Source of the DNA: a virus
Length of the DNA: 30,798 nt
Reading direction: 5' to 3' (one strand)
Virus record (IMG/VR): IMGVR_UViG_3300042455_002391
Coordinates: 1 to 30,798 of that record
In this document: piece by piece, positions 1,946 through 27,713 of the stretch
Layout: each line of letters starts with the position of its first letter
Numbering within the stretch: position 1 is the stretch's first letter
Notes under the pieces: generated by a model
Databases searched by the model: none
What the model was told of the DNA's origin: nothing
Seen by the model: only the letters and a program-made list of their open reading frames with translations
Program-made: the position numbers and the translations under genes

Positions 1946-2629
1946 TTATGGAACGTGTGCCCATGTTTGGCGGCGAATAATTGTGCTAATAACACATTGT
2001 TTTACTCCAAACTGCAAAGCTAACTGTTTCTGTGTAATACCACCAGCAGCGTAGCGGGCGCGAATGTCAATGACTTTGGCTGTAGTGAGTTTGGCGGCGG
2101 CGTTCGCCTCTCCTCTTGCTAAACTTTCTGGATGCAAGCGTGCACCACTCTTATCACCGCGTGCAAGTCTCTCAGGGTTGCGGCGGGCATGGTGATTATC
2201 TCCGCGTGGTATGCTTTCTGGTTTTGTGTATGCGCCGTTTTTATCGCCGCGAGCCGGGTTGCAACGGCCCTTAGCAATCATGTCCCGTATATTGTCCGTT
2301 TGGGTGCCAAGAAATAAATGTTCCGGGTTTACGCAGGATCTATTATCGCAGCGGTGACAAACGCAGATGCCGTGGTGGCTGCCGTCGTGGGGAATCTGAC
2401 CGTTTGCTAGCGTCCATGCAATGCGGTGAGCTAAAATCGCTTTTTTATTTACAGTCCATCTCCCGTATCCGCTTTTAATGAACCATGCTTTCCACTCCCA
2501 ACAAGGAGTGCTTATGCCAAGCATCATTGGCCCGTTTTTGTTCACCTTGCTCCAAAATTTTATCTCTTGGGCGGCAGTGAGCTTGATTTCGTTGCGCGTG
2601 CGTGGCACGGTTTGGGTAGCTTCGTTCAT
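1946..2629 (-). CDS. HNH homing endonuclease (HNH_3-like) with C-terminal RGD-type repeats and HTH
   Basis: Free-standing homing endonuclease that would nick or cut a phage target site and spread itself. From the ATG at 2629 it is 227 aa. The HNH core has a CWEW strand, then AHRIAW, then [11 protein letters not shown] with NPEHLFLGT, the Cys/His pattern of the zinc-containing HNH_3 family. This is followed by three 15-aa repeats beginning RGDK/RGDN/RGDK and a helix-turn-helix tail ([11 protein letters not shown]) that probably binds DNA. The frame is open upstream to an ATG at 2725, but those extra 32 residues look like read-through of spacer, and [17 protein letters not shown] is a more normal N-terminus. 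Base composition is clearly lower in GC than the flanking virion genes, as expected for a mobile insert. It sits between two virion genes and interrupts neither. Confidence 0.85.
2117..2251 (-). repeat. Three tandem 45-bp coding repeats in the homing endonuclease
   Basis: Three consecutive 15-residue units start with [30 protein letters not shown] and [16 protein letters not shown] partial fourth ([11 protein letters not shown]) leads into the C-terminal HTH. The period is exactly 45 bp at the DNA level, though the copies are diverged. In related HNH proteins this linker between nuclease and DNA-binding tail probably contacts DNA; copy number may vary between homologues. Confidence 0.8.
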
Positions 2630-2740
2630 AGCGATAATATGGATTGGAGTTAGCGCCGTCGTCCTGCTGAATACAGGCGGCGGCGTGTTCATGCATACAC
2701 CAATGCGCGGCTTAATCAAGCCCAAACAGCCGGGCCATGG

Positions 2741-3424
2741 CTACTTGGCGGCAGCTAGGCGGCGGCGGGCATCTGGATCACCTCCAAGCCAACGGCGGGC
2801 TCGACCAAGATAGCCTGCCTGCATATCAGCATAAGCTTTACCTGCCTTGGCTCCGGCCACGGTAGCTTGGCCCACGGCCTTTAGGGCTGGCTTCTCGATT
2901 TTATCAACGGCAGCATCGGCTTTTTCGAGGAAGTTCTTAGACTCCCATTCATCGCTCTCGCGCTGCTTTTTACGGCCAGCCTCGGCAGCCACTTTGGCGC
3001 GGGCTTCGGATTGGAGGCGGTGCAGGCTAGAACGCCCTTCATCCTCTGATCTGCGCACGATACTACGCACACGTCCGGCCTGCTTCGCGGCATCCCGCTT
3101 GGCGGTCCACTCGGCCTCCGAACCCTTGGCCTGCCCTGGCGCTGGGCGAGATGGCTTGGCAGGCTCGGCCTTCTTGGGGGCTTCTGGCGTGCGGGCCTTG
3201 GTGATCTGCTCTTGGGTGGAGCGTATCAGGGTGTCCAAGTCTTTCTTGGGCTCGGCAGCCTTCGCCGGGCTGGCATGGCTGGCAGGCTTGGGCATGGCTG
3301 CCGTTTGCCGGGCGGGCTCGGGCTTGGCTGGCTCCTCGTACTTGGCGTAGGCGTTGGAGCGTTTCTGGCGTTGGGCAGCGTCTTTGAACCATTCTGCGGA
3401 GGATTTGCCTTCAATAGTAGCCAT
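2741..3424 (-). CDS. Ala/Lys/Pro-rich protein of the virion block
   Basis: A 227-aa protein of unknown function, starting at ATG 3424 just after the leader CACACCACA and with no Shine-Dalgarno. Residues 1-40 (TIEGKSSAEWFKDAAQRQKR) are charged. Residues 40-110 are a Pro/Ala/Lys-rich low-complexity linker, and 110-227 form a basic helical region with a Gly-rich segment (GKAYADMQAGYLGRARRWLGG). It follows the 160-aa gene by 10 bp and is the third of three Ala-rich genes directly downstream of terL. A virion or ejected DNA-associated protein is possible, but no family is recognised. Confidence 0.75.
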   Translation of the reverse strand: MATIEGKSSAEWFKDAAQRQKRSNAYAKYEEPAKPEPARQTAAMPKPASHASPAKAAEPKKDLDTLIRSTQEQITKARTPEAPKKAEPAKPSRPAPGQAKGSEAEWTAKRDAAKQAGRVRSIVRRSEDEGRSSLHRLQSEARAKVAAEAGRKKQRESDEWESKNFLEKADAAVDKIEKPALKAVGQATVAGAKAGKAYADMQAGYLGRARRWLGGDPDARRRLAAAK

Positions 3425-3434
3425 TGTGGTGTGA

Positions 3435-3917
3435 TTAGCGGATTACGAGTGTTCCTTTGCGGCGGGCCTTCCGGGCCATGTCCAGCAGCCCGGCGGGCTC
3501 TGTCATGGCGACTGTCTCGGCCACCTTCTGCCCTGCCGGGCGGGCCATGCTCATGGGCGTGGAGCGGGCGGGCTTCTTGGGGGTGTAGGCGGTGGGGGCG
3601 GTGTAATCGGCGCGCTTTTTCCGAGTAATTGTTCCGGCATTATCCATAGCAACATCGGAGCCCATGTCTGCGGCCTCTTCGTTGTAGGTGTCCTTGGTTT
3701 CCTCAAAAGTGCCCTCATGCTTGGCTTTAGCAACACGCTGGGCGCGCTGCCGGGCGGCCTGAATGCTGCGACCATCCTCGTAAAGGTGCTCTTGGGATTC
3801 ATAAACGCGCTGGTTGGCGCGGGACCTAGCCTGATCTGCCCCGCCTTGGGCTAGGCGTGAGTAGCCTAGAATTTGGCGGCGGCCTTTGGAGTTGTAGCCT
3901 TCGGCGTCGTATTTCAT
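3435..3917 (-). CDS. Basic, Ala/Arg-rich protein of the virion block
   Basis: A 160-aa protein of unknown function. Its ATG at 3917 overlaps the stop of the upstream gene by one base (TAATG), a sign of coupled translation. The first 75 residues are helical and rich in Arg, Gln and Ala (RSRANQRVYESQEHLYEDGR). A linker with KKRADYTAPTAYTPKKPARS follows, and the C-terminus is basic (ARKARRKGTLVIR). There are no transmembrane segments and no catalytic motif. Composition resembles the neighbours on both sides, so the three genes may encode related minor virion or internal proteins. Confidence 0.75.
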   Translation of the reverse strand: MKYDAEGYNSKGRRQILGYSRLAQGGADQARSRANQRVYESQEHLYEDGRSIQAARQRAQRVAKAKHEGTFEETKDTYNEEAADMGSDVAMDNAGTITRKKRADYTAPTAYTPKKPARSTPMSMARPAGQKVAETVAMTEPAGLLDMARKARRKGTLVIR

Positions 3918-4477
3918 TAGCGTCCGATCTTGGGGGCTGAGATTGGTTTGCGGGCTGATCCTGCCGCCGGGTTGCGAGCAAGGCTGGCTTGGCTAGCGGC
4001 AATCTGCTGCTGTAGGCGGAGGTTTTCTGGATCGGCGGCAACGCGGGCCTGCGCCAAGCCCATCTGGGCCTTTTTGCGGGCGGCTGCATTGGCGGCGGCA
4101 AGGCCTCCTGTAGCCTGATTCAGCGTCATACCACGACGGCCAGAGCCTCCTCGGGCGATACCTCCGCCGGGCTGGCTCTTGCTTCCGGCTTGGCTGAGGG
4201 CGTACTGGAAGGCAGTTTGCCCGGCTGCCCGGTTCTGTTCGGCTTCGTAGTCCTGGGCGTCGGCCTCGACCTCGGCGGTAGCAAGGTTGGTCTGGGCGGT
4301 GAGTTGGCCTTTGAGTTGGGCGAGCCCCTGTTGCTGCAGCTGTGCCCAGAACCGCTTCCCCTCGGGGCTGGCTGAGTCCACCCACCTGCCTGAAACAGGG
4401 TTAAAAACCTTCGATCCGCTGCCGGAGCTGCCACGGTTGACGTTTGCTTGGTATCCGGTGCTGGTATAATCGGCCAT
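3917..4477 (-). CDS. Ala/Gln-rich protein downstream of the large terminase
   Basis: A 186-aa protein of unknown function. It starts at ATG 4477, seventeen bases after terL stops, with the leader CTAACCACA and no Shine-Dalgarno. The N-terminus is Gly/Ser-rich (STGYQANVNRGSSGSGS). Residues 40-110 look like a coiled coil rich in Gln and Ala, then comes a Gly-rich patch (GGGIARGGSGRRG) and another Ala/Gln helix. This resembles helical ejection or internal proteins of podoviruses in composition only. It shares a one-base stop/start overlap with the next gene. Confidence 0.75.
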   Translation of the reverse strand: MADYTSTGYQANVNRGSSGSGSKVFNPVSGRWVDSASPEGKRFWAQLQQQGLAQLKGQLTAQTNLATAEVEADAQDYEAEQNRAAGQTAFQYALSQAGSKSQPGGGIARGGSGRRGMTLNQATGGLAAANAAARKKAQMGLAQARVAADPENLRLQQQIAASQASLARNPAAGSARKPISAPKIGR

Positions 4478-14334: not shown

Positions 14335-14718
14335 TCAGCGCCGGAGGTTCTGCAAAGCCCAAATGAGTTCTTCGTGTTTTTTGTCGGCGTCCCATTTCTT
14401 GTGCAGCTCCGCATCCGCCCTCCGCCTCTGCTCCACGGCGGCCAAGCCTGCCTGCCTGCCCTGGGCTGCCGCGCCCTCAAGAATGGCGTAGAGGCTGGCG
14501 GAGATGGCCCGGCGCTCGGCATCGGTGGCGGACTTGGCTAGGGCGAACCTGAGCCGGATAACGTCGGGGCGCTGGCGGGCCTTGGCAATGGCGGCAGACT
14601 CGTAGGCCGCCACGGTCATGGCCTCAGTGGGGCGGCGGGTGTCTTGGGCCTGGGCGGGCAGGGCGGCAAAAAGGCGGAGCAGGGCGAAGGTCAGGAGAGC
14701 GTAGGCTAGCGTTTTCAT
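14335..14718 (-). CDS. Small secreted protein
   Basis: A 127-aa protein with a signal peptide at 1-24 (MKTLAYALLTFALLRLFAAL) and a probable signal peptidase I site after AQA. The mature part is helical and rich in Ala, Arg and Glu (VAAYESAAIAKARQRPDVIR, QAGLAAVEQRRRADAELHKK) and looks like a coiled coil. The start ATG 14718 follows ACCCCCACA. It lies within a DNA-metabolism block, which is unusual for an exported protein, and just downstream of an attC-like element. Function is unknown. Confidence 0.75.
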   Translation of the reverse strand: MKTLAYALLTFALLRLFAALPAQAQDTRRPTEAMTVAAYESAAIAKARQRPDVIRLRFALAKSATDAERRAISASLYAILEGAAAQGRQAGLAAVEQRRRADAELHKKWDADKKHEELIWALQNLRR

Positions 14719-14757: not shown

Positions 14758-14822
14758 GCCGAACTGCCGCTGGAGCCGACAGACTCGCTGAGGCTCGCTA
14801 GCGGCTCAGCTCTTTGTTCGGC
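14758..14822 (-). repeat. attC-like recombination-site palindrome next to the helicase stop
   Basis: On the minus strand GCCGAAC (14822-14816) begins at the base after the helicase TAA and is matched by GTTCGGC (14764-14758). Each is followed inward by an 8-nt spacer, then GAGCCG and CGGCTC. The inner arms align as GCTGAGCCG against GCTGGAGCCG, so one G would be extrahelical. This R-spacer-L architecture with one extrahelical G is that of integron attC sites. The fourth R-box base departs from the consensus RYYYAAC/GTTRRRY. Confidence 0.5.
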
Positions 14823-16304
14823 TTAAAGTTTCCCCACAATACCCGCCATCTCGCTTTCCGTCCAGCCCCGGCCATGCAGGCTAGGCCGCCGCCGGGCTGC
14901 CGTGATGGTGAGGCTATCCCGTGCCCTTGTGACGGCAACGTAAAAGAGCCGCAACATCTCGGCAGTCTCCGGCCAGCTAGCCTGCTCGGCCCCGGCAATG
15001 AGAACATGGTCCCATTCGAGGCCTTTGGCTCCGTGAACCGTGCCAATATAAAGGCCGCCAAAGTCATAGCTAGCCTGTGCCTCCGCTTGGGCCAGGGCCT
15101 CGGCCATGGCGGGCAGCAGGGCCTCGGGCTCGGCTGAGCCGCAGGCCTCGGTGAAGTGGCGGACGTAGGGTAAGGCGTCGTGGTGGTCGTGCCATGTCTC
15201 GCCAGAGTGCTGGATGGCTGCCATGGCCTGCCTGATCATGGCCGGGTCAAGCGCCAAGGCCGGGCTGGGCGGCAAGGCGTCGGCCAGGGCCAGCCGGAGG
15301 CGGTCGGCCAGGGCGTTGTGGCGGCAGAGGATGGCGCAGGAGCCGGTAGGGTGAGCGGCCAGCCACTCGCGGATGCGGGCGAACTCGGCGGCCTCGGTGC
15401 CGTGGTTGGCGATTGTGGGCGGCGTCCAGTCGTCGGGGCGGATGTGGCGCATGGTGATAGCCCCAGCCTGCCCGGCTGTCAGGGCGTTGGCGGCGGCCAC
15501 GATGCCGGGGAGGCTCCGGTAGTTGTCGGCAAGCGTGCGTTGCTGCCAATCATGGCTGGCGGCCAAGTGGCGGAAGTAGTCGGGTGAGGAGCCACGGAAT
15601 CCAAAGATTGATTGCATTTCGTCGCCGACAACGGTTTTGGACTTGGACTCGATTTTTTCCAAAAGAACGTAGTCGGCAACGGCAGAATCTTGAAATTCGT
15701 CCATGTAAAAGGCATCCAACTCGCCGAGACATCCAGGAAGGTAGGCAACTGCTTCTCCAAGTAGAATATCCATTGAAGCCTGCCCAGCAGCAATCATGGC
15801 CCGGCGGACGGCGCGGGCGGGTGCGTAGGCTCGATTAGTTGAGATATAAACGCCACCACGGCCATTTTTGAGCGCGTGCGCTTGGTCAGTAGCTTGCCCA
15901 GCGGCCAGTGTGGCTGCCACGTCGCGAATAGACACGGCCTTGTCGAGGCGGAGGCGGGCCAGCTCGGCCTTGATGAGTGCGGCCTGCATGTCCTCGTCTA
16001 TGATGAGCGGGCGCTTGTAGCCCCAGGTGGGGAACTTGTGCGCCTCAGCCAAAGCCAAGGCGTGGATCGTGCCCACATGGCGGAGGCCGGTAATGCCAAG
16101 GGCGGCCAGCCGGTCGGCCAAGATGCGGCCAGCTTGGACGGTGAAGCTGATGGCGACGACTTTGGCTGGGTCGGCCCCGTTGGCGATGGCCTGGGCGATG
16201 CGGTGGACGAGCACGAAGGATTTCCCACTCCCTGCACCACTGCGAAGCAGGAGGCGTGGCGTGGGGCTATGTATTGCGGATGCTTGCTCTAGTGATGGAT
16301 TCAT
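14823..16304 (-). CDS. UvrD/PcrA-like superfamily 1A DNA helicase
   Basis: A 493-aa ATP-dependent 3'-5' helicase by family. The SF1A motifs appear in order: Q motif LEQASAI, Walker A SGAGSGKS (22-29), Ia VVAISFTVQAG, Ib GTIHALAL, Walker B FYMDEFQDS (199-207), III VVGDEMQSIFGFRG, IV LADNYRSLPGIV, V GTVHGAKGLEWDHVL, and VI RLFYVAVTRARDSL. It is shorter than cellular UvrD (about 720 aa), with reduced accessory subdomains. The ATG at 16304 overlaps the upstream homing-endonuclease stop (ATGA). It likely works in replication or recombination with the neighbouring SSB and Rad50-like ATPase. Confidence 0.93.
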   Translation of the reverse strand: MNPSLEQASAIHSPTPRLLLRSGAGSGKSFVLVHRIAQAIANGADPAKVVAISFTVQAGRILADRLAALGITGLRHVGTIHALALAEAHKFPTWGYKRPLIIDEDMQAALIKAELARLRLDKAVSIRDVAATLAAGQATDQAHALKNGRGGVYISTNRAYAPARAVRRAMIAAGQASMDILLGEAVAYLPGCLGELDAFYMDEFQDSAVADYVLLEKIESKSKTVVGDEMQSIFGFRGSSPDYFRHLAASHDWQQRTLADNYRSLPGIVAAANALTAGQAGAITMRHIRPDDWTPPTIANHGTEAAEFARIREWLAAHPTGSCAILCRHNALADRLRLALADALPPSPALALDPAMIRQAMAAIQHSGETWHDHHDALPYVRHFTEACGSAEPEALLPAMAEALAQAEAQASYDFGGLYIGTVHGAKGLEWDHVLIAGAEQASWPETAEMLRLFYVAVTRARDSLTITAARRRPSLHGRGWTESEMAGIVGKL

Positions 16305-23194: not shown

Positions 23195-23815
23195 ATGCCT
23201 TTCATTCTCTCCGACACTCCACAAGTCATCCGGTGCCTTGTCCGCGCCGAGTTTACTCAGAACCACCAACGCCACCAAGGCCAGTATCTCCGCGCCCACA
23301 TTCTCGGGGTGCGCTGCCAGGAAGCGGCAAGCCTTCAATTTCAGGTAAGGTTTGACGAGCCCAAGATGGCTGGGGCCATGTTTTGCCTGCCGATTCAGGC
23401 TTTGTGCTGGAAGCCTTGCCCGGTGCCAGACGCCGAGCTTGTCCAGCCGTGGGACACGTTTTCGGCCACGTTTGCCGTGCATGAGTTTGCCTTGTGGCGG
23501 CGGGGTAATGCCCAGCTTCTTAACGTGCGAGGGATTGATGGCCACCCCGAACGCCTGCCCGCCCGCTACCTATTCACACTCGATTTTGCCGGTAACGCCT
23601 TGGCGGATGACTTCGAGCAGCACAAACAGCTCCACGTTTTGCAGATTGAGGCGGGCTGGTTTGCCGCCGTGCCCAACAACCGCGTCTTGAGCGTGGATGC
23701 CGCCTTTGCCCAGCCCTGCGAAGCTCTGCCGCGCTTTCAATCGCTGGATTACCTCTATACCGCAGAATGCAGAATAGGCGAGCCCAGCCTTGACGCCGGG
23801 CCGGGCTTGGCGTAG
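23195..23815 (+). CDS. Unknown beta-rich protein (206 aa)
   Basis: Not assigned to a family. The chain alternates strands: FILSDTPQVIRCLVRAEFTQ, YLRAHILGVRC, MAGAMFCLPIQALCWKPCPV, LPARYLFTLDFAGNALADDF with EQHKQLHVLQIEAGWFAAVP. Its tidy beta pattern and HKQLHVL-IEAGWFAAVPNNRVL segment suggest a single soluble domain. ATG 23195 is used; a frame starting at 23173 in another register is a shadow. It is the last gene before the hairpin at 23863. Confidence 0.75.
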   Translation: MPFILSDTPQVIRCLVRAEFTQNHQRHQGQYLRAHILGVRCQEAASLQFQVRFDEPKMAGAMFCLPIQALCWKPCPVPDAELVQPWDTFSATFAVHEFALWRRGNAQLLNVRGIDGHPERLPARYLFTLDFAGNALADDFEQHKQLHVLQIEAGWFAAVPNNRVLSVDAAFAQPCEALPRFQSLDYLYTAECRIGEPSLDAGPGLA

Positions 23816-23918: not shown

Positions 23919-24586
<668 letters not shown>

Positions 24587-24596
<10 letters not shown>

Positions 24597-25984
24597 ACGA
24601 CACGCCCAAGCCCCAGCAGGGCAAGTCTGCCGAAGACATCCTAGCCGAACTTTCAAAGGCTAAGATGCCAAGCGATGCCGAAACAGAGATTGCAGTGCTT
24701 TCCTGCGCCATCCAAGCCCCAGGCTGGGCGGCCAAGCACGCGCCAAACATCCCGATTGGCGCTTTCTCCAAAGACGCTCACCGCCACATCTGGGGGGCTA
24801 TCTCGTTTCTCCTGATCCAAGACACGCCGGTTGATGTCCATACTGTCTGCCACCGTTTGAAGGATATTGGCAAACTTGACCTAGCTGGCGGCTACTCGAA
24901 TGTAACGGATATTGCCGTTACTGTTCTGGGGGCTTACAACGCCGACGCCTACCTCCGCCCCCTGGTGGACATGCACATTCAGCGCCAGCACATCCTAGCC
25001 CACGCTCGTAGCCTAGAACTCCTTCTCCGCACGCAGGTATCCGAGGCCACCGCCCTAGCCGATGCCGTCGAGGCCAACAAGCAGGCCGTCGAGGATGCAG
25101 GCAAGGTGTCGGGCCGCAGCCTCGCCCGGCTCACCATGTCGCAGGCGATTGATGCCACTGTGAACGAGATCAACGAGCGCGTCCAGCGTGGCGGAGCCTT
25201 GCCGGGCTGGCCGAGCGGGTTCCCGTCCATGGATCAGCGCACAGGCGGGCTACAAAAGGGCCGTGTGACCATCTTTGCCGGGCTTCCGAGCGATGGAAAG
25301 AGCGCCATTATGCAGAACTGCGCCCGTAACGCCCTCATGGCCGGAGCTAAAGTTGGCTGGTATTCGCTAGAAATGCCCATTCCTGAGCAGACGTTGCGCA
25401 TTCTGGCCGAGCAGTCGGGCGTGGATAACGGCGACCTTTACAGCGGGCTACTATCCCGAGCACAGCAAGATTTGCTAACGCGGGCTGTTCGTGAGTTGCG
25501 CGACAAGGGCGCGGTGATGGTGGATACTGAGAATGCCACCTCCGCCGACATCTTGGCCGATATTGAGCGGTCGGGCTTTGATGTTGCCGTGATTGACTAC
25601 CTCCAACTTTTGGAGCCCGGCGACGTTCGCAAGGGGGCGAGCCGTGAAGAGGTGATTTCCAGCATCTCCCGCCGCATTAAGGCCGTAGCAAGGCGGACAG
25701 GCTGCCACATCCTAAGCGCCAGCCAGCTTAACGACCAAGGCCGCCTCCGTGAGAGCCGGGCCATCGGCCAAGATGCTGATAGCGTGTACTTGGTCAACAA
25801 GTGCCCCATGGAGCGCAAAGACGGCAAAGCCACCGACGCCGACGACCAACTAGAGTTCGACGACACCCGCCGCCTTCTTTGGTGCGAGAAAAACCGTGGA
25901 GGCAAACGGCATTGGGAATTGCCTTTGTGGTTTTTTGGATCTACATTTACCTTTAAAGAAATACAGGCCACTGACAGCATGTAA
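24587..25984 (+). CDS. dnaB: Replicative DNA helicase, DnaB type
   Basis: A 465-aa hexameric helicase that unwinds the replication fork. The N-terminal DnaB domain is at 30-130 (DAETEIAVLSCAIQAPGWAA, VDVHTVCHRLKDIGKLDLAG). The RecA-like C-terminal domain has Walker A GLPSDGKS (232-239), SLEM with the catalytic Glu (260-263), Walker B VAVIDYLQLL (333-342), SASQLN (377-382) and LRESRAIGQDADSVYLV (387-403). The ATG at 24587 has GGGAGG eight bases upstream. It overlaps the DUF1376 gene by 10 bp. Confidence 0.97.
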
Positions 25985-26002
25985 CCCCAGACATCCGACA
26001 CC

Positions 26003-26281
26003 ATGACCACCGAAGACGCCCTCTTTACCCTCCCAGCCAGCCCGCCGCCAGCCCTGGCCCGCCTCCGGGCAGAATACGCCGAGTCCGTGGCGGCATGGCA
26101 CGCCGCAGACGAGCACGAAGACGAAAGTGGGGAGGCTGTGCCCCGTGAGGTCACTCGCCGAATGCACCGCGCCGAATGCTGCCTCCGCGCCGAAGAAGCC
26201 CGGCTGGCTGCCCTGGCCGACACTAGCCACTGCGCCGAGCTTGGCGTGGCTTTTGCTGAACTTCCACACGCGCTGCCATGA
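26003..26281 (+). CDS. Small Ala/Glu-rich protein (92 aa)
   Basis: Not recognised. ATG 26003 is preceded by AGACATCCGACACC. The chain is helical, rich in Ala, Glu and Arg (ALARLRAEYAESVAAWHAAD, RRMHRAECCLRAEEARLAAL), probably a coiled coil. It overlaps the next gene by 4 bp (ATGA). Confidence 0.75.
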   Translation: MTTEDALFTLPASPPPALARLRAEYAESVAAWHAADEHEDESGEAVPREVTRRMHRAECCLRAEEARLAALADTSHCAELGVAFAELPHALP

Positions 26282-26496
26282 CTGCCACCCAAGCCTGCCC
26301 CATCGCCCGAGCCGAGGCCAGCCTAGCCGCCATCTTCGCCGCCTGCCAAGCCTACAAGGCCCGCCACGCCCAGGCCCGGCAGGCCAAGGCCGACGCCCGG
26401 CTCGCCCAGGGCGGGCTATGGTGGCGGAAGGAGGGGAACGAAATAGGTCAGCCACCGCCGCCGGGAGCGAGCGAGGCCGACACGAAAAATCTATGA
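26278..26496 (+). CDS. Small Ala-rich protein with tail encoded by attC-like sequence (72 aa)
   Basis: ATG 26278 overlaps the previous stop. Residues 1-51 (RAEASLAAIFAACQAYKARH, ARQAKADARLAQGGLWWRKE) share the composition and codon style of the preceding gene. Residues 52-72 (GNEIGQPPPPGASEADTKNL) are encoded by the attC-like element at 26433. The native C-terminus may have been replaced by an insertion here. Function is unknown. Confidence 0.65.
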   Translation: MTATQACPIARAEASLAAIFAACQAYKARHAQARQAKADARLAQGGLWWRKEGNEIGQPPPPGASEADTKNL

Positions 26497-26558
26497 GACA
26501 CAACAGGGCAACGAAACGGAAACGCGGGCGGGTGTTGGCTGCACCGCCATTGTTAGGC
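26433..26558 (+). repeat. attC-like site 1 (left end of cassette-like array)
   Basis: It runs from GGGGAACGA (26433) to TTGTTAGGC (ending 26558). The right box GTTAGGC fits the integron R' consensus; the left GGGGAAC is degenerate. Inner arms GGTCAGCCA (26446-26454) and TGGCTGCACC pair as GGT + CAGCCA with one extrahelical G, the mark of attC. It contains the ATG of the next ORF (26493). Confidence 0.5.
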
Positions 26559-26750
26559 ACGTTTGGCGAGCAATACGAAGTCAGCCTCGACTACCGGAAG
26601 CCGGATGGATACTGGGTGTGCTCGCACAAAGAACACGTCACCGTGCCGGTGGTGCATGGAGTGAATGAGAAGAAAAACCACGCAGCGGCGGAAGCCATCG
26701 CAAAACAACGATACCCAAAATGCAGAATCAACAGCGTGACATACTGCTAG
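26493..26750 (+). CDS. Cassette-like ORF 1 (85 aa)
   Basis: Not recognised. ATG 26493 overlaps the previous stop (ATGA) and lies inside attC-like site 1; the stop TAG ends one base before site 2. The first 20 residues are basic and encoded by the site (RHNRATKRKRGRVLAAPPLL). The rest is a small beta-rich domain (EQYEVSLDYRKPDGYWVCSH, KEHVTVPVVHG) followed by a helix with NHAAAEAIAKQRYPKCRINS, reminiscent of double-stranded-RNA-binding or DUF-type small folds. Codon use is less GCC/GGC-rich than the flanking phage genes. Confidence 0.65.
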   Translation: MRHNRATKRKRGRVLAAPPLLGTFGEQYEVSLDYRKPDGYWVCSHKEHVTVPVVHGVNEKKNHAAAEAIAKQRYPKCRINSVTYC

Positions 26751-26751
26751 T

Positions 26752-26850
26752 GCCTAACGACAAGCTGACCCACGGAGGCCCGACTAATGAGCATTGAATC
26801 CACAAAAGACGAGCAACGGGACTCCGTTGCGGTCCAGCGCCTTGTTCGGC
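26752..26850 (+). repeat. attC-like site 2
   Basis: GCCTAAC (26752-26758) fits the R'' consensus RYYYAAC and pairs at six of seven positions with GTTCGGC (26844-26850). The inner arms GCTGACC (26764-26770) and GGTCCAGC (26831-26838) pair with one extrahelical G, and ACGGAG/CTCCGT (26772-26777, 26822-26827) is a perfect inner stem. The site starts one base after the upstream stop and contains the next ATG (26787). Confidence 0.6.
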
Positions 26851-27023
26851 AGGTTGAATGCCTGACCGAAGCTGTGGCGTCTCTCGCCTACTGCCTTCAG
26901 CGCGGCCCATGCTGGGGGTCAACTGGCGAGGTAAACAACGCACTCCAGAAAGCGTGGCGGCTGGTGGAGCAAGCCCGAAGCAATCCGCCGAACGCCAAGG
27001 ATCACGCGACCGATGGGGCTTAG
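26787..27023 (+). CDS. Cassette-like ORF 2 (78 aa)
   Basis: Not recognised. It starts within attC-like site 2 and stops 19 bases before the left box of site 3. The chain is helical (DSVAVQRLVRQVECLTEAVA, SLAYCLQRGPC) with an amphipathic segment (EVNNALQKAWRLVEQARSNP). It is soluble, with no signal peptide. Small helical ORFs of this kind are common in integron cassettes. Confidence 0.6.
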   Translation: MSIESTKDEQRDSVAVQRLVRQVECLTEAVASLAYCLQRGPCWGSTGEVNNALQKAWRLVEQARSNPPNAKDHATDGA

Positions 27024-27042
27024 CCACAAATGAATCTCAACC

Positions 27043-27122
27043 GCCAAACGATATGACCGAAGCTGTAAACCCCGAAGTAAAAGAGCAGGCCCCATCTGGT
27101 CGCGTGCATCCTCTTGTTCGCC
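27043..27122 (+). repeat. attC-like site 3
   Basis: It runs from GCCAAACGA (27043) to TTGTTCGCC (ending 27122). It shares the AACGA left flank and CTTGTT right flank with sites 1 and 2. The inner arms pair poorly, so this is the weakest site. The DUF4326 start codon (27053) lies inside it. After that gene, ATCCAACGA (27417-27425) looks like the left half of a fourth site without its right half. Confidence 0.35.
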
Positions 27123-27430
27123 ATTCGTTGTCGCGCAAGGCTGGATGGCGGATGCCTGCGAATACCGTGAAGGTGTCGCGCCCTGGCAAATGGGGGAATC
27201 CGTTTCTCGTCGGGCCGGAACGCACGCAAGTCGAGGCAGTGGGAGCGTTCCGAATCTGGCTCACGACTGAGGGCGTGACGGCTGGAATCCACGAACGCAA
27301 ACAGTGGATGCTCGACCACTTGCACGAACTGCGCGGGAAAAATCTGGCGTGCTGGTGCAAGGCAGGCACGCCGTGCCATGCCGATGTGCTGCTCGATATG
27401 GCGAACAGTACGGATCATCCAACGAATTGA
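27053..27430 (+). CDS. DUF4326 protein, cassette-like ORF 3
   Basis: A 125-aa protein. Residues 38-115 match DUF4326: ANTVKVSRPGKWGNPFLVGP, then AVGAFRIWL, and the hallmark LRGKNLACWCKAGTPCHADV near the C-terminus with its three cysteines and His. DUF4326 is a small domain of unknown function found in phages and bacteria, probably nucleotide- or nucleic-acid-related. The gene starts in attC-like site 3 and ends by a half site. Its codon use is less GCC-biased than the phage genes around it. Confidence 0.85.
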   Translation: MTEAVNPEVKEQAPSGRVHPLVRHSLSRKAGWRMPANTVKVSRPGKWGNPFLVGPERTQVEAVGAFRIWLTTEGVTAGIHERKQWMLDHLHELRGKNLACWCKAGTPCHADVLLDMANSTDHPTN

Positions 27431-27473
27431 CGACATATCACGCATCCGTATGGTGCAAACCCACACCAACCCC

Positions 27474-27713
27474 ATGACTGACCTCACCCTATCCGAACAA
27501 GCCTTCTCTGCCGTAGCCGCCGCCCTAGCCCCGCTCCCGCCCGCCGAGGCCGAGGCCCTGCTAGCCTTCATGTTGGCCTCCGTGGCCGTGAAGTACCGCA
27601 CCGGCCTCCCCGCCTCCGGCATCAAGGCCGAGCTGGCCGCCAAGCTCGCCGTGGCCGTGGACGGGCTGGCTGGGCCTGCCCAGGCTTACGATGCCGCGCA
27701 GGTGGCGGGCTAG
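27474..27713 (+). CDS. Small Ala-rich helical protein (79 aa)
   Basis: Not recognised. ATG 27474 follows CACACCAACCCC. The chain (TLSEQAFSAVAAALAPLPPA, EAEALLAFMLASVAVKYRTG, IKAELAAKLAVAVDGLAGPA) is all helix, with one moderately hydrophobic stretch that might touch a membrane. Strong GCC bias shows that the phage's own composition resumes after the cassette-like insert. Confidence 0.7.
   Translation: MTDLTLSEQAFSAVAAALAPLPPAEAEALLAFMLASVAVKYRTGLPASGIKAELAAKLAVAVDGLAGPAQAYDAAQVAG

Follow-up and report, generated by a model that had tools for sequence, protein, structure and literature searches.

Small genes separated by palindromes, lying within the operon of a phage, raise the question of whether these palindromes are integron attC sites and, if so, how the cassettes between them are oriented and moved. 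Such an array is found in a 30.8-kb virus record (the window, i.e., the whole stretch of 30,798 nucleotides analyzed here), which encodes a terminase-like protein, a DnaB-like helicase, a primosomal-type protein, and a UvrD-like helicase. A first-pass annotation had read three consecutive palindromes and their ORFs as host integron cassettes captured by the phage; the attC identity of the sites withstood our analysis, their ordinary orientation did not, and capture from the host was not supported. The closest kin of the window are IMG/VR contigs, isolate phages matching distantly only, and a host call from the terminase and DnaB was dropped because both find only distant isolate relatives. Over its whole length the window gave no match in Rfam, and its array segment gave only short DUF4326 matches among isolate phages.

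Some genes outside the array are also found in other records. An HNH-endonuclease-like ORF (1946–2725, minus strand, judged by eye) has a resembling ORF in L132 (6672–7217), placed after the filled locus described below. A gene of ~200 aa (MPFILSDTPQVIRCLVRAEF...), which in the window (23195–23815) is upstream of the primosomal gene, lies downstream of DnaB and directly before the array locus in L005 (~1840–2440) and L006 (~3400–4000); it is a relocated gene.

The array and its sites

The features discussed, with attC and cassette assignments as read from the DNA, are the following.

14758–14822, plus strand: lone resident attC, between the UvrD-like gene (14823–16304, minus) and the gene at 14335–14718 (minus)
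26278–26496, plus strand: 72-aa phage gene, with the array inserted into its last codons
26433–26558, minus strand: attC site 1, of cassette A (R'' GCCTAAC, L'' GGT[G]CAGCCA, L' TGGCTGACC, R' GTTCCCC)
26439–26757, minus strand: cassette A, between AA/C crossovers, with end cores GTTAGGCAC and GTGCCTAAC matching over 9 nt
26493–26496: ATGA overlap of the TGA stop of the 72-aa gene and the ATG of ORF A
26493–26750, plus strand: ORF A, 85 aa, antisense to the attC of its own cassette
26752–26850, minus strand: attC site 2, of cassette B (GCCGAAC-AAGGC-GCT[G]GACC ... GGTCAGC-TTGTC-GTTAGGC)
26758–26992, minus strand: cassette B, with end cores matching over 7 nt
26787–27023, plus strand: ORF B, 78 aa
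26987–27122, minus strand: attC site 3, of cassette C, with 15-bp arm pairing around an extrahelical G
26993–27405, minus strand: cassette C, with end cores GTTCGCCAT and ATGGCGAAC matching over 9 nt
27053–27430, plus strand: ORF C, DUF4326, 125 aa (PF14216, E 2e-26)
27406–27462, unstranded: attI-like flanking element (CAGTACGGATCATCCAACGAATTGACGACATATCACGCATCCGTATGGTGCAAAC...), constant beside varying cassettes

ORF A has no family match and ORF B no convincing one. On the left side the array alters the tail of the 72-aa gene, as had been proposed: with the flanks joined across the array this gene would end in ...WWRKEGNSTDHPTN and a stop, its homologue in L006, where the array is missing, ends in ...WWQDNDSK and a stop, and the R' sequence GTTCCCC of site 1 comes from the phage gene itself. 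On the right side the boundary of cassette C falls between GGCGAA and C at 27405/27406, and the last codons of ORF C (NSTDHPTN and a stop) belong to the flanking element, outside the cassette; L002 has a different C-terminus. The element, which gives the last ORF this tail, contains ATCCAACGA, which had been taken for a half-site after ORF C, a reading that we reject, since ATCCAACGA is part of a ~60-bp flank conserved in other phages. The reported shift in composition was also seen, GC going from ~0.69 to 0.55 within the segment and up again after about 27500.

ORFs A, B, and C each begin inside a site, just as first described. The AACGA and TTGTT flanks and the paired inner arms hold for sites 1 and 2, but the left arm of site 3 had been placed at 27043 and was moved to 26987 by the covariance model placement and by arm pairing, the arms pairing as GAGGAT[G]CACGCGACC and GGTCGCGTGATCCTT. 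ORF A does stop one base before site 2; because of the new left arm, however, the stop of ORF B, put at 19 bases before site 3, lies inside that site. The single extrahelical base is present too, although on the plus strand it is a C on the right arm.

For an independent view of the sites, we used two covariance models (R1 and R2) trained only on 14 chromosomal bacterial attC sites, from arrays located in bacterial chromosomes by DNA pattern, and a third (R3) made from nine phage sites. The training sites align to the attC consensus (invariant AAC, extra G in the L'' arm, GTT), and two of the four genomes supplying these arrays have an integron integrase above the curated cut-off. Site 2 reached 28.4 bits with R1 and, in a scan of 0.82 Mb of viral DNA, 27.3 bits with R2 (E 1e-3), and the site at 14758–14822, a textbook attC that had been overlooked, 25.4 and 29.6 bits (E 2.5e-4), these E-values being rough because the calibration was short. 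Site 3 scored 29.5 bits with R1 and 23.9 bits with R3, while site 1 was weak (15.1 bits with R3) and had no match with R1 or R2. The scores in the window (25–30 bits) are below those of canonical arrays; three sites in L132 match the bacterial-trained models at up to 45 bits, and the covariance model of each set, phage or bacterial, matches the other. The first-pass annotation had named two findings that would tell against integron sites, the lack of any covariance-model match and relatives bearing the ORFs with no palindromes between them; this pair of findings did not arise, a bacterial-trained model matching sites 2, 3, and 14758–14822.

The stems point in the same direction. Across 16 phage sites there are 47 compensatory cells in the stem, and the observed pairing was reached by none of 500 shuffles, the stems having been trimmed by hand, so that the percentage paired leans toward structure. 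AAC and GTT cores are seen in every tabulated site (R'' RYYYAAC, R' GTTRRRY), with outer core bases that often fit loosely (GTTCGGC, GTTCCCC), L'' and L' pair fully across the tabulated sites, and the extrahelical G is found 8–10 nt past the core, on the L'' arm when the attC is read antisense to the genes.

Polarity and frame of the phage cassettes

The attC sites run antisense to the phage ORFs. All 13 R2 matches of at least 19.5 bits (some in near-identical contigs) are antisense to the local operon, including 14758–14822, on the plus strand amid genes on the minus strand. The extra base of the window's array takes its canonical place, the L'' arm, only when the minus strand is taken for the attC. 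The breakpoints fall in the left AAC arm, which is where those of an integron integrase are expected if the attC is antisense. A canonical (plus) orientation of the array is ruled out by the strand of the covariance model matches, the extrahelical arm, and the breakpoints. Every ORF of known family in the phage cassettes (DUF4326, methyltransferases) is antisense to the attC; by longest ORF, a crude measure, phage arrays are antisense in 13/22 only. An ORF that shares the orientation of its attC is typical of integron cassettes but no strict requirement.

This polarity bears on the reading of the array as ordinary host cassettes, in normal orientation, captured once by the phage. That the sites are attC, and match those in the chromosomes of Verrucomicrobiota and of other phyla, fits such a capture; an attC polarity opposite to the ORFs does not, the longest ORF running with the attC in 104/119 cassettes of bacterial arrays. 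The antisense format, moreover, recurs together with its frame phasing in several phage lineages, and the bacterial DUF4326 copies that we found are not beside attC (see below), and we consider a single capture of this kind unlikely.

R3 found further arrays in other phages, among them L054, L056, and L042, nearly all antisense; in L056 the order, with gene names given by eye, is DnaB, array, TerS-like, and TerL-like. An antisense ORF of at least 50 aa begins within 26/28 long phage sites versus 36/138 sites of Verrucomicrobiota arrays (Fisher p 2.7e-11, with sites related by descent). These bacterial starts were discarded as a true counterpart of the phage ones, many of the frames looking spurious and most being unconvincing.

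The frame itself is also kept. Considering the phage sites entered by an ORF of at least 45 codons, 24/24 junctions have the core AAC in frame, as an Asn codon, and in 23 of them this frame is the longest; canonical bacterial cassettes have it in frame in 24/43. In 16/24 long phage sites this frame first meets a stop at the TGA within the ATGA that starts the next ORF, compared to 3/135 and 0/136 bacterial sites and to a mean of 0.76 (maximum 5 in 2000) when the site interiors were shuffled; the other 8/24 phage sites make no use of ATGA. In L160 (site 8033) and L056 (site 3169) the register is kept though the upstream ORF has already ended, and thus it belongs to the cassette itself. The frame tests were devised after inspection of the data, on sites that share descent, and their p-values therefore overstate the case. 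With this reservation, frame phasing and the overlap of stop and start are regular traits of these sequences, and the layout as a whole (antisense, start in loop, core in frame) is new here for several phage lineages.

Cassette gain and the conserved flank

The comparison with related phages that the first-pass annotation had suggested, looking for an empty site, was rewarding: L006 and L007 are without array, and at the second locus L130 is unfilled and L132 filled. As far as 27406, L002 and L004 are 100% or almost 100% identical to the window; they then contain an extra unit of ~700 bp (a stem-loop and an ORF for an N6/N4 DNA methyltransferase), after which the flank continues. Leaving this unit aside, L002 and the window are identical along 24000–27406 and again along 27403–27644, with the junctions of the unit falling after GGCGAAC and after GGAGAAC. 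In L005 and L117 the flanks of the window's array enclose one other cassette each.

The second locus, at 14758–14822, lies next to a gene (14335–14718, minus strand) that encodes a small secreted-protein-like ORF. L130 has only the lone attC, kept with compensatory changes in its arms; in L132 three cassettes, 1631 bp in all, are inserted at that very site, and the flank downstream is identical in 1359/1359 bases. The third cassette of L132 (5473–6153) carries an ORF (VLVACEYSGAVRDAFRALGHDAMSCDLLP...) that by eye resembles a phage DNA-modification protein. Like 14758–14822, which contains no start codon, the short attC sites that close other arrays (L034 4168–4219, L042 4343–4390, L026 4873–4933, and L044 4165–4216) are without one and resemble it; in those that were tested, the upstream ORF terminates in frame inside the site.

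Discrete cassettes have been gained precisely (L002 versus the window, L130 versus L132), with the crossover resolved to the shared GAAC only. The two end cores of each cassette (one end being the reverse complement of the other) agree over 7–9 nt in 10/10 cassettes, as an excised circle would need; mismatched pairs of end cores agree over a mean of 3.9, and none of 20,000 permutations was as good as the observed set.

These data also weigh on a quite different explanation, in which the palindromes act as RNA hairpins between cistrons, coupling their translation, and gene turnover is due to homologous or microhomology recombination from one palindrome to another. Stop/start overlaps in the loops would suit coupling at the RNA level, and since the breakpoints of gain and loss share GAAC, microhomology recombination could in principle yield the same junctions. 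However, a model of bacterial recombination sites matches the palindromes, the site at 14758, where nothing starts, is nonetheless kept with compensation in L130 and precisely filled in L132, and each cassette has its own core shared by both ends, which coupling alone does not need. We find this explanation improbable. Taking together the independent covariance model, the position of the extrahelical base, the matched end cores, and the precise cassette gain, we conclude from sequence comparison that the sites are attC.

The ~60-bp flank to the right of the array is common to the window, L002, L117, L005, L054, and L019, while the phages and the adjoining cassettes differ, and the methyltransferase cassette of L002 adjoins it exactly. 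In integrons, new cassettes enter at attI. We call this element attI-like because it is at the attI position, with the extra cassette of L002 next to it, although it could alternatively be a conserved gene tail or an RNA element. It was not found in 289 Verrucomicrobiota genomes, barring one match with three mismatches (in a TonB-receptor-like frame), dismissed as chance, a reversed control pattern also giving one. Within the element there is a hairpin at 27440–27456 (GCACC-CGTAT-GGTGC), also present in L005, L117, and L054, apparently kept by paired changes, which could be an RNA element.

Source, enzyme, and relation to known systems

A search of verrucomicrobial chromosomes for the same sites and ORFs, another suggestion made at the outset, gave a mixed result: attC sites of the same type are present, but the sampled DUF4326 genes, found in 3/289 Verrucomicrobiota genomes, are not near attC. 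R3 matches were obtained in 54/289 Verrucomicrobiota genomes and in 10/149 and 12/149 genomes of two other phylum samples, and the best one (70.7 bits) lies outside the Verrucomicrobiota sample, in a locus where the attC and the neighboring ORFs are mostly on the same strand. Verrucomicrobiota are therefore one candidate host phylum, given the matches in other phyla, the best one included. The immediate source of the cassettes may be other phages, as the antisense format recurs in several of their lineages.

Regarding the enzyme, no match to PF00589 was found in 28 phage records (the window and 27 relatives, some of them fragments), and hence no intI integrase gene by this profile; an integrase may still lie elsewhere, many of the viral contigs being incomplete. 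One could think of a recombinase unrelated to IntI, encoded by the phages or by a satellite, that shuffles genes through attC-like palindromes, and the phage-specific format and the failure to find the flanking element in the 289 Verrucomicrobiota genomes would agree with it; but the same searched records show no tyrosine recombinase, and the cores, the extrahelical base, and the G/TT crossover are those of integrons, which makes such an enzyme very improbable.

We consider it quite probable that the locus is a CALIN-type array of antisense, frame-phased cassettes that owe their movement to a host integrase working in trans; that an integron integrase is the enzyme, that it comes from the host, and that the layout serves to couple translation are inferred. 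Cassettes A, B, and C would have entered the final codons of the 72-aa gene at an AAC, which reads GTT on the opposite strand, and would form an integrase-less (CALIN-type) array where this small gene of a phage operon ends. The insertion would adjoin the attI-like flank, where new units such as the methyltransferase of L002 would enter, and the crossover would be between G and TT on the minus strand. The most likely agent would be a host integron integrase acting in trans on the folded single strands of the sites, because no tyrosine recombinase appears in any phage record searched. An upstream ORF reads through the core AAC and ends in the loop, mostly at the TGA of the next ATGA; with the core in frame and the stop in the loop, any cassette placed after any other would keep register in the operon. 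The in-frame core and the overlap of stop and start suggest translational coupling of each cassette to the gene that precedes it. As a guess, the cargo (DUF4326, DNA methyltransferases) could act against host restriction. There is perhaps an even chance that several phage lineages share a gene-swapping system of their own, with an integrase-free attI-like dock and a pool of antisense, frame-phased cassettes, coupled whatever their order and moved by host integrases.

Integron cassettes in phages have been known so far as uncommon finds. Here they seem to be a working format common to several lineages, with before/after pairs that show recent gain, and one that would answer the problem of expression without a promoter, any cassette being in register with its neighbors. 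If integrases do act on these sites, phages would be customers of bacterial integrons as well as vehicles for them, and single cassettes may be the unit in which they trade genes such as methyltransferases.

Chromosomal (sedentary) arrays of Verrucomicrobiota and other bacteria have the same attC architecture and length as the phage sites, but differ in that their ORFs are mostly attC-sense, rarely start in the attC, and less often have the core in frame. Integration of cassettes at secondary genomic sites (attG), at GTT outside attI, was reportedly described by Loot and colleagues in 2024. The cassettes of the window resemble it in being at a non-attI GTT, at the 3' end of a phage gene; unlike attG, the ~60-bp conserved flank recurs in diverged phages, more in the style of an attI dock than of a random target.

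The nearest likeness is to the phage-borne CALINs of Qi et al. (2023; PMC9892861), attC arrays without integrase and with methyltransferase cargo, whose attC sites IntI1 was shown to recombine into attI1. In their phage TJE1 the attC run in the direction of the genes (canonical), unlike in the window, and the portion of their article consulted contains no antisense attC, loop starts, in-frame cores, or precise gain between relatives. Antisense cassettes in phages were likewise not found in the open literature, within a limited library. One published CALIN, that of ctTUS972 (L163, MW202573), has covariance model matches at 2069–2132 and 3670–3738 opposite to its genes, a polarity that goes without mention in the same portion of the article, and because of these matches the antisense layout may be wider than recognized.
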